This document shows, in pieces, positions 7,041-51,734 of a stretch of 64,000 nucleotides of DNA. The notes under the pieces were generated by a model. It was not told where the DNA came from. It did no database searches and worked only from the letters and a program-made list of their open reading frames with translations. The stretch's first letter is position 1, and each line of letters opens with the position of its first letter. The position numbers and the translations under genes were made by a program. This stretch comes from Pseudomonas fluorescens. GTDB lineage: Bacteria > Pseudomonadota > Gammaproteobacteria > Pseudomonadales > Pseudomonadaceae. The stretch covers positions 682,001 to 746,000 of the forward strand of contig NZ_CABVIR010000001.1 in NCBI RefSeq assembly GCF_902498065.1. Reading direction: 5' to 3'.

Positions 7041-7168
7041 TGCCTGAACGGCGGATTGGGGTGATTTTTCCAGCGGCGCGCTGATTGCATTCCATCTGTC
7101 GCATGACTTGAACTGTCGGGGGGCAAATGCGTCTGAATGTACGCGATATCAATCCTACGGAAGCAATC

Positions 7169-7636
7169 ATGCTTTTTAAGAACAAGAGTCTCGTTGCTGT
7201 CATGTCATGCGCCATGATGCTTGCAGCCGCCCCCTTACTCCCAGCTGACCTCTCTATCATGAACGCCGCCTATGCGAAGGGTGGTGGTGGTGGTGGTGGT
7301 GGTGGTGGTGGTGGAAACGGCGGTGGCCATGGCGGCGGTACAGGTGGTGGTCACAGCGGTTCCGATCACGGCAGCGCTAACAGTAACGGCCGTGGTAATG
7401 GGCTGAGCAGCGATCATGCCGGCAAGTCTGTTCGTGACCGTGGCGAAAGCGGAAACCACTACGGCAATGATCGCAATGGTGAGCGCGGTCATGGGGTCAC
7501 GACTTCGGGCATCGCCAATTCCAAAGATACGCGCGGCGTGACCAAAGCCACTGCAATTTCGACCTCGACGCCAGGGGACCACAACACGAAAGGGTTGAGT
7601 AAAGCCGGAACGTCGGTTTCAAAGAAATCGCACTGA
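7169..7636 (+). CDS. Exported glycine-rich hypothetical protein
   Basis: This is a 155-residue protein with a long signal sequence (MLFKNKSLVAVMSCAMMLAAAPLLP, cleavage probably after AYA). A run of 12 glycines follows, then a Gly/His/Ser/Asn-rich region of low complexity and a Thr/Ser/Lys-rich tail. No domain is recognisable; it is probably disordered in the periplasm or outside the cell. The ATG at 7169 is preferred over 7127 because of the ACGGAAG site and the signal peptide. The glycine run is encoded by a nearly pure GGT microsatellite. Confidence 0.6.
   Translation: MLFKNKSLVAVMSCAMMLAAAPLLPADLSIMNAAYAKGGGGGGGGGGGGNGGGHGGGTGGGHSGSDHGSANSNGRGNGLSSDHAGKSVRDRGESGNHYGNDRNGERGHGVTTSGIANSKDTRGVTKATAISTSTPGDHNTKGLSKAGTSVSKKSH
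7280..7315 (+). repeat. GGT trinucleotide microsatellite (11 GGT + GGA)
   Basis: Twelve consecutive glycine codons, eleven of them GGT, lie inside the exported glycine-rich gene directly after the signal peptide. A pure triplet run of this kind is prone to slippage. Changes in unit number keep the frame and alter only linker length. Confidence 0.95.
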
Positions 7637-11109: not shown

Positions 11110-11140
11110 AAAAAGCCCGGCTGATCAGGCCGGGCTTTTT
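11110..11140. terminator. Bidirectional rho-independent terminator
   Basis: aaaaagcccggc and gccgggcttttt form a 12-base stem around a short tgatca-type loop, with A and T tracts on both sides. It lies after the cupin gene and after the 3' end of the convergent repeat-protein gene. An almost identical terminator accompanies the second copy at 24546-24576. Confidence 0.92.
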
Positions 11141-11164: not shown

Positions 11165-11644
11165 TTATGCCGCGCGGCTTTCGATCAGGCGATCCGAGCC
11201 ACCTTCGGCAACGCGGTTTTCGATCAGGCGATCCGAGCCACCTTCGGCAACGCGGTTTTCGATCAGGCGATCCGAGCCACCTTCGGCAACGCGGTTTTCG
11301 ATCAGGCGGTCGGAGCCACCTTCTGCTACGCGGTTTTCGATCAGGCGATCCGAGCCGCCTTCAGCAACGCGGTTTTCGATCAGGCGGTCGGAGCCACCTT
11401 CAGCCACACGATTCTCGATCAGGCGATCCGAACCGCCTTCAGCCACACGATTCTCGATCAGGCGATCCGAACCGCCTTCAGCAACGCGGTTTTCGATCAG
11501 GCGATCCGAGCCACCTTCAGCCACACGACTTTCAATCAGACGATCCGAGCCGCCTTCAGCGACAACCGGGTGAGTCGAGGTAGCGGCGAAAGCGTTAACT
11601 GCAAAAACCGAGAAAGCGATGCTGAGAATGGTTTGGCGTTTCAT
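11165..11644 (-). CDS. Exported protein with ten 13-residue VAEGGSDRLIENR repeats
   Basis: This is a 159-residue protein. A signal peptide (MKRQTILSIAFSVFAVNAFA) and a seven-residue linker are followed by exactly ten copies of a 13-residue unit and a final Ala-Ala. The first and last units read VAEGGSDRLIESR, the eight inner ones VAEGGSDRLIENR; the protein repeat is otherwise perfect while the 39-base DNA units differ at synonymous sites. It is probably periplasmic or secreted. Each unit ends in Arg, so trypsin-like cleavage would release identical peptides; that is speculation. A GGAG site lies nine bases before the ATG. The paralogue at 24601-24963 has seven units. I do not recognise a function. 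Confidence 0.8.
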   Translation of the reverse strand: MKRQTILSIAFSVFAVNAFAATSTHPVVAEGGSDRLIESRVAEGGSDRLIENRVAEGGSDRLIENRVAEGGSDRLIENRVAEGGSDRLIENRVAEGGSDRLIENRVAEGGSDRLIENRVAEGGSDRLIENRVAEGGSDRLIENRVAEGGSDRLIESRAA

Positions 11645-11985
11645 GATCGTGTGCTCCGGGGTGTTTTGGGTTGGTATGGAGCAGATGTTACGCCGCGGAT
11701 TTTTTAAGAGAACTTCATTGGCGTGATGGTGACCATCGACGGCATTGATAGGGCGAGCGGCCTACCTCTGGTGAGCGTGATGAGGGTGGGGAGCACTGGC
11801 CACGGGAATGTGACAGGGCATTGATTACATTGCGTATCAACAGTAATGCGCGACAACGTCATTATCATTGCAGTCAGTGACAAATACAGTAAGCCGCATT
11901 CGACCCGCCTCGATTTCTCCAGCGGATTTACTCGCAGCGTAGGTGACGATATCAATTTTTTTACGGCGTAATTAAGGTGCCTTTC
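11645..11985. other. Divergent promoter region of repeat-protein gene and cupin gene
   Basis: The first 140 bases are shared with the upstream region of the second repeat-protein gene and should hold its promoter. The rest, up to the cupin gene, is AT-richer and contains no gene I can support. Confidence 0.5.
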
Positions 11986-24545: not shown

Positions 24546-24576
24546 AAAAAGCCCGGCTGATCAGGCCGGGCTTTTT
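24546..24576. terminator. Bidirectional rho-independent terminator
   Basis: The same aaaaagcccggc / gccgggcttttt hairpin as at 11110-11140. It serves the alpha/beta hydrolase gene on the plus strand and the convergent repeat-protein gene. Confidence 0.92.
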
Positions 24577-24600: not shown

Positions 24601-24963
24601 TTATGCAGCGCGGCTTTCGATCAAGCGATCCGAGCCACCTTCAGCAACGCGGTTTTCGATCAGACGGTCGGAACCACCTTCAGCCACACGATTCTCGATC
24701 AAACGATCCGAACCACCTTCAGCGACGCGGTTTTCCATCAGGCGATCCGAACCACCTTCAGCGACGCGGTTTTCGATCAGGCGATCCGAACCACCTTCAG
24801 CCACACGATTCTCGATCAAACGATCCGAACCACCTTCAGCGACACGACTTTCAATCAGACGATCCGAGCCGCCTTCAGCGACAACCGGGTGAGTCGAGGT
24901 AGCGGCGAAAGCGTTAACTGCAAAAACCGAGAAAGCGATGCTGAGAATGGTTTGGCGTTTCAT
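24601..24963 (-). CDS. Exported protein with seven 13-residue VAEGGSDRLIENR repeats
   Basis: This 120-residue paralogue of the gene at 11165-11644 has an identical signal peptide, the same linker, seven 13-residue units and the terminal Ala-Ala. One unit carries Met for Ile (RLMENR); first and last units again end ESR. The number of units is thus the main difference, which points to expansion and contraction by recombination between units. It has the same GGAG site nine bases before the ATG. Probably periplasmic or secreted. Function unknown. Confidence 0.8.
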   Translation of the reverse strand: MKRQTILSIAFSVFAVNAFAATSTHPVVAEGGSDRLIESRVAEGGSDRLIENRVAEGGSDRLIENRVAEGGSDRLMENRVAEGGSDRLIENRVAEGGSDRLIENRVAEGGSDRLIESRAA

Positions 24964-25107
24964 GATCGTGTGCTCCGGGGTGTTGTTGGTTGGTATGGAG
25001 CAGATGTTACGCCGCAGAATTTTTAAGAGAACTTCATTGGCGTGATGGTGACCATCGACGGCATTGATAGGGCGGGCGGCCTACCTCTGGTGCGCGTGAT
25101 GATGGGG

Positions 25108-51452: not shown

Positions 51453-51734
51453 ATGAAAAAGTTGACCACCGTCGTATTGTCCATGTGCCTCGCCGTAGGC
51501 GCCGTCAGCGTGTTTGCCGCCGATACCACAACCAGTGATGGCATGAGCAAGGACAGCATGAGCAAGGACTCGATGTCCAAAGACGCCATGAAAAAGGACA
51601 CGATGTCCAAGGATTCCATGAGCAAGGATTCAATGAAGAAAGACGCCATGTCGAAGGACTCCATGAGCAAAGACGCCATGAAAAAAGACGCGATGTCCAA
51701 GGACCCCATGAAAAAGGACAACATGGCGCAGTAA
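51453..51734 (+). CDS. Pentapeptide MXKDX repeat protein
   Basis: This 93-residue exported protein has a signal peptide (KKLTTVVLSMCLAVGAVSVFA) and then twelve tandem five-residue units of the form M-S/K-K-D-x, ending MAQ. About one residue in five after the signal is Met. The family is known by its repeat, not by function. It follows the molybdenum oxidoreductase by 63 bases; a Met-rich periplasmic protein beside an MsrP-like reductase is suggestive. An AAGGAG site precedes the ATG. Confidence 0.9.
   Translation: MKKLTTVVLSMCLAVGAVSVFAADTTTSDGMSKDSMSKDSMSKDAMKKDTMSKDSMSKDSMKKDAMSKDSMSKDAMKKDAMSKDPMKKDNMAQ

Follow-up and report, generated by a model that had tools for sequence, protein, structure and literature searches.

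What does a small exported protein do when its whole mature length is one 13-residue unit repeated with hardly a change, and how is it controlled? The question is raised by a gene in a 64,000-nt stretch of Pseudomonas fluorescens DNA (assembly GCF_902498065.1, contig NZ_CABVIR010000001.1, positions 682,001 to 746,000; hereafter the window). Translation confirmed the original prediction of a signal peptide followed by ten 13-residue repeats, with a seven-repeat paralogue further along the window (Table 1). In the first product, of 159 aa, the signal peptide (judged by eye) is joined through a short linker to ten VAEGGSDRLIE[N/S]R units followed by a final AA; units 1 and 10 end in ESR and the eight inner units are identical. 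The second product, of 120 aa, has the same layout with seven units, one of them with Met for Ile, and Tandem Repeats Finder placed its 39-base array at 24609-24882 (7.0 copies). A degenerate 21-base unit core, allowing up to three mismatches, occurred at 17 sites in the window, all inside the two arrays, where 0.17 were expected. Since 39 is a multiple of 3, the plus-strand frame over the arrays stays stop-free, and the plus-strand ORFs found there were set aside as shadows.

The two genes had also been predicted to share a promoter and a terminator, and this held: about 140 nt of upstream sequence and the terminator are common to both. Across the species whose array promoters were compared, the nod-box and the upstream sequence on its gene side are conserved, and the two window copies have a unit of about 680 bases in common. 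Neither copy lies at the conserved genomic site, which is that of the copy at C1:134 kb and adjoins a glutathione S-transferase-like gene (named by eye).

Table 1. Array genes, their flanking elements and other exported arrays of the same genome. Positions without a contig are those of the window.
Feature	Position	Strand	Basis
Array gene 1: signal peptide and ten 13-residue units, stop included	11165..11644	(-)	translation
39-base tandem array, 9.9 copies	11173..11560	(-)	Tandem Repeats Finder
Array gene 2: signal peptide and seven units, stop included	24601..24963	(-)	translation
MexT-type nod-box, copy 1, exact ATCAN5GTCGATN4ACYAT; 81 nt to ATG	11726..11749	(-)	pattern match
MexT-type nod-box, copy 2, exact match	25045..25068	(-)	pattern match
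Upstream region common to copies 1 and 2, ~140 nt	11645..11785	(-)	sequence comparison
Terminator-like stem-loop (12 pairs) behind array gene 1	11110..11140	(-)	sequence
Terminator-like stem-loop behind array gene 2, stem shared with copy 1	24546..24576	(-)	sequence comparison
Window-type unit array, ten units	C1:134 kb		
Window-type unit array, five units	C1:664 kb		
Window-type unit array, ten units (window copy 1)	C1:693 kb		
Window-type unit array, seven units (window copy 2)	C1:707 kb		
Other exported 13-mer array, LAADGSDRTPQGQ type	C9:134 kb		
Other exported 13-mer array, 20 units, VAADGADHVGAGA type, AADGADHVGAG-type units	C1:561064-561903 (L183)		
Other exported 13-mer array, six units, AADGADHVGAG-type	C4:506769-507068 (L184)		
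Three-motif protein	C1:779 kb		
Array remnant, 1-2 units, lying ~2 kb from the five-unit array	C1:662380-662445 (L008)		

Small exported 13-mer-array proteins occur across most Pseudomonas species sampled. Matches were found in 233 of 298 same-genus genomes (E≤1e-20). A scan of named genomes gave 284 relatives, and the best 80 of the 284 were all titled Pseudomonas. In a draw over the whole family, 65/148 genomes in 8/19 genera matched at E≤1e-4; relatives in genus g30 mostly match P0001 only at ~1e-5 to 1e-11. Array-length variation, which the original prediction had supposed to matter, proved to be real when repeat number was compared across genomes, arrays having between about 4 and 21 units in the species compared. 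Unit spacing in the 116 parsed genes, which had been picked by protein similarity, was 13 residues, with multiples of 13 in ten genes because the regular expression missed variant units; the expression itself imposes Gly5, a small residue at position 6 and Asp7, and misses AADG units. One relative (L128) is broken at one ambiguous base. Two same-genus relatives have 14-residue units (L213 and, in part, L201), the unit changes to VAEGGADRTPGFR, IAEGGSDRTGANR and VAEGGSDRTKAFD beyond Pseudomonas, and one sister genus has longer and more degenerate units of about 17-18 residues. Mobile spread was considered and was not supported, despite the long unit common to the window copies: at E 1e-5 the plasmid matches amounted to one record, from Pseudomonas asturiensis, and phages gave none.

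The genome of the window contains at least seven exported 13-mer arrays, four of them built of the window-type unit, and the two copies originally predicted are therefore the correct number for the window and too few for the genome. No nod-box was found before the C1:561 kb array, the C4:507 kb array or the three-motif protein, and the two box-less arrays indicate that 13-mer proteins of this design are not confined to the group with a MexT-type box. At C1:777889 (L152, L182) a one-mismatch box lies 78 nt before a small exported protein ending in VADNRPEFGSKYQRY; this protein is encoded about 1 kb from an EGGSDR protein that has no box of its own, and the tails of the two are nearly alike. The window holds a further exported repeat protein, made of MSKDS/MKKDA pentapeptides (51453-51734, plus strand; the minus-strand ORF over it had no NCBIfam match), and an exported protein with a 12-glycine run (7127-7636, plus strand) over a GGT tract at 7280-7314.

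Approximately 100 upstream regions of array genes were compared, and one conserved block was found, beginning with ATCAN5GTCGATN4ACYAT, which we take to be the consensus for MexT. In 21 promoters (from 94 of 102) the block carried 1.47 bits per position versus 0.09 further upstream, a contrast inflated because the promoters were aligned on the motif, the far region being placed only by distance to the ATG. The 6.2-Mb genome holds the exact pattern four times; three of the matches precede an array ATG by 81 nt, and a nod-box upstream, as would be expected in the MexT regulon, is present in exact form before both window genes. The box of the five-unit array has two mismatches and that of the C9:134 kb array one; in all four window-type-unit arrays and one divergent array of this genome the box lies about 80 nt before the start codon. 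A sigma-70-like promoter was not found. The MexT nod-box consensus given in an excerpt of PMC11432991, ATYA(N7)YGAT, is fitted by the array box.

Among the named arrays, 25/82 fit the exact pattern, 39/82 its ATYA form and 77/82 the relaxed form ATN9YGATN4AYYAT. At 90-125 nt before the ATG, the relaxed box was found in 76/80 named-species arrays, which are not independent because same-genus promoters are homologous, in 10/11 other same-genus arrays and in 20/38 arrays of other genera, where signal peptides and units differ; control windows gave 0/670 and non-array ORFs in the named loci 1/1558, arrays with under 420 nt upstream having been omitted from the array counts. Nearly all ATYAN7YGATN4AYYAT sites in the named loci (39/40) lay 103-107 nt before an array ATG. 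The relaxed box is absent from 18/38 other-genera arrays, including a group with TGANR units; where arrays of the sister genus stand in tandem pairs, second genes are among those that lack it. The fourth exact box of the genome (C1:1790455-1790478; L151, L178, L270) precedes by 84 nt a hydrophobic ORF of 30 residues, MLIHLLTCLALTALTLTVFSWYVLTEERTS. The two occurred together in 7/9 other loci examined (L271-L279, with homologues at L271-L278), a pairing that suggests a MexT-controlled micropeptide.

In the genome, mexE follows a LysR gene and is itself followed by genes for an RND permease and an outer-membrane channel, MexE being called by NF045904 (754.6 bits, cut-off 714). The LysR gene, which by its position we take to be a putative mexT, was matched by no MexT model; BsrA, its best NCBIfam model, scored 176 against a cut-off of 480. 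Upstream of mexE, two ATYAN7YGAT sites fit the short consensus and lack the longer tail. In most species mexT sits apart from mexEF-oprN, according to an excerpt of PMC11432991. Since MexE is near-universal in the genus (294/298 genomes), its co-occurrence with arrays is uninformative. In six genomes of the sister genus, five of ten exact boxes lie before tandem-repeat proteins (one each in five genomes), four before ArsR-type genes and one before a small lipoprotein-like gene (the last two classes by eye). One-mismatch boxes there include five before GST-type genes (by eye), with others before or within mixed genes; these assignments cover 28 of the 31 sites (one had no locus).

A tandem-repeat protein attributed to MexT control is also known from P. 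aeruginosa. A passage in PMC3557286 presents PA4881 as an uncharacterised tandem-repeat protein under MexT control, citing Fargier 2012 and Tian 2009, and adds that PA2206 also binds the PA4881 promoter and that a PA4881 mutant is no more sensitive to H2O2. PA4881 heads the MexT table excerpted from PMC12607905 (-6.5 log2 in a mexT mutant), and a regulated-gene table in PMC3848899 groups a probable GST (PA2813), PA4354, mexEF-oprN and PA4881. MexT answers electrophilic and nitrosative stress, as stated in a portion of PMC7950407. The literature search returned no mention of VAEGGSDRLIENR or EGGSDR, and of the three texts it found that join 'tandem repeat protein' and MexT, PMC3557286 was the sole one on Pseudomonas. 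The remark that no function had been described for these arrays consequently needs amending, with a MexT-type nod-box and PA4881 in print, and stands insofar as PA4881 is itself uncharacterised. The window arrays combine a tandem-repeat protein with a nod-box, as the PA4881 kind would, PA4881 being compared by description only, and the tandem-repeat proteins of the sister genus have the same box at a similar distance. The 13-mers differ from the longer, more degenerate sister-genus repeats, and the window genome differs in having several paralogues.

Several other explanations of the repeat were weighed against the sequences. Homogenised units within arrays, the variable unit number and the small remnant of units at C1:662 kb could all be expected of a minisatellite maintained through slippage of the DNA and gene conversion, the peptide being under no selection. 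When units were compared within each array by Nei-Gojobori counts, however, the ten-unit window array had pS 0.445 and pN 0.012 and the seven-unit window array pS 0.502 and pN 0.026, with pN below pS in 111/111 arrays (mean pS 0.405, mean pN 0.051, mean pN/pS 0.127; 111 of 116 genes, L027, genes shorter than 80 aa and those with ambiguous residues being omitted). Homogenisation should lower pS and pN alike and therefore does not alone explain the ratio, and in the parsed genes, with the bias of their selection by protein similarity, spacing keeps to multiples of 13 residues; a minisatellite has hardly any chance of being the explanation. Selection acts on the 13-residue peptide, as originally predicted. 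Another alternative is a multi-copy precursor, cut by a protease after the unit-final Arg to free many 13-mers as a signal or host-active peptide, and the signal peptide and the Arg at position 13 in 1041/1051 parsed units suit such a precursor. Yet position 8 is Arg or Lys in 1041/1051 units as well, and a trypsin-like protease would therefore give two pieces per unit; in relatives that keep the core, moreover, position 13 can be Asp (TKAFD units) or Gly (LQERG units). Instead of the one conserved cleavage site per unit expected of a precursor, there are two basic positions, which makes the originally predicted trypsin-like release of a single 13-mer unlikely, and the precursor explanation as a whole appears very improbable. 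The composition of the mature chain, 16% Arg (15.9%), 15% Gly and 14% Glu, would suit an exported sacrificial sponge whose Arg residues react with dicarbonyls and aldehydes in the periplasm, and the box belongs to a regulator linked with electrophile stress. The absence of Cys in 115 arrays and His and Met contents of 0.1% each speak against a thiol or soft-metal sponge. Even an Arg-based sponge needs composition and not strict order, whereas 21 aligned relatives show no change of Gly, Asp and Ala in most units, residue 12 varying freely among the parsed units, and we regard it as unlikely. The strictness of the residue order, which goes beyond composition, favours a binding or folding unit that is repeated.

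Relationship to known families was weighed in the same way. Pfam gave no match to the array protein, and the whole array scored 89.5 bits against NCBIfam NF041599, the PtrA N-terminal domain (cut-off 31). Excerpts of PMC7763554 and PMC8872213 connect PtrA of P. aeruginosa with copper and CopRS control, and the array could accordingly be a relative whose EGGSDR core marks a periplasmic copper-tolerance protein under CopRS; PtrA (PA2808) and the arrays are both exported and have in common a short EGG[S/A][D/E]R motif near the signal peptide. The signal peptide with one unit scored only 20.3 bits, however, the cut-off being passed only because the repeats are summed, and the best stretch covered profile positions 7-30 of the full-length 1-46. 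A genome-wide family search found no NF041599 match in this genome, and the array chains have no Cys and hardly any His or Met. In the nine PtrA-like proteins displayed, of 30 loci scanned, the motif occurs once, right after the signal peptide at the apparent cleavage site, with other sequence behind it, and none of the nine has a nod-box before it; a copper-type PtrA relative is thus highly improbable. By eye, the motif stands at the apparent mature start of all nine (L012, L014, L018, L023, L027, L028, L030, L036, L037), as if it were a common handle of exported Pseudomonas proteins with differing sequence behind. AlphaFold2 gave a mean pLDDT of 46.3 and a repeating short-strand pattern with an alignment of 21 sequences, and 60.3 for one relative (L208) alone; Foldseek with the L208 model found nothing at E 0.001 or better, and in a profile search against PDB sequences no match was better than E 0.1. 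These predictions and searches carry no weight as fold evidence, and a pLDDT of 46 is too poor to choose between a solenoid and a disordered polymer. The RTX repeat is a GGxGxDxUx nonapeptide. RTX and other beta-solenoids resemble the arrays in having Gly-Gly and Asp in a short repeat and in the low-confidence beta pattern predicted here; the array unit VAEGGSDRLIENR differs from RTX in its 13 residues, in lacking the GGxGxDxUx order and in having no Pfam match.

From the signal peptide (by eye), the nod-box at a fixed place, the terminator-like stem, purifying selection, varied unit number and dispersed paralogues, we consider it rather probable that each array gene forms a unit of its own, encoding a small exported repeat protein, probably periplasmic, that is activated by MexT together with MexEF-OprN and acts as a multivalent chain in the envelope. 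The regulatory half of this reading, predicted from the MexT-type box, is well supported for the window-type group; the biochemical half we infer. Under electrophile, disulfide or nitrosative stress, the LysR-type regulator MexT would switch on the array genes together with MexEF-OprN, and the box and the P. aeruginosa data suggest that this activation may be direct. The mature protein would be an extended multivalent chain, each unit of which may offer its conserved core (A-E-G-G-[S/A]-D-R in this group) to a partner in the envelope under stress, and unit number together with gene number would set the capacity. We read the array genes as a genus-wide, multi-copy 13-mer branch of the PA4881 kind that would serve the MexT stress response.

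A bolder version of the multivalent-chain reading, tentative and rather doubtful, is that the arrays make up a class of stress proteins spanning the family, whose MexT-controlled EGGSDR chain fills the Pseudomonas envelope and protects a specific target there from electrophiles, with its dose set by 39-base unit number and gene number. If this were true, the EGGSDR chain, rather than efflux alone, would be a main output of the MexT response, and the box-less arrays would answer other stresses with the same device. MexT and MexEF-OprN have been studied for drug efflux, and the strongest members of the P. aeruginosa regulon include function-less genes such as PA4881. Most Pseudomonas species sampled carry one to several exported 13-mer arrays, mostly behind a MexT-type box, and in this way an orphan gene is turned into a large family under selection, for which there are a ready inducer, a candidate regulator and a dose that can be counted.
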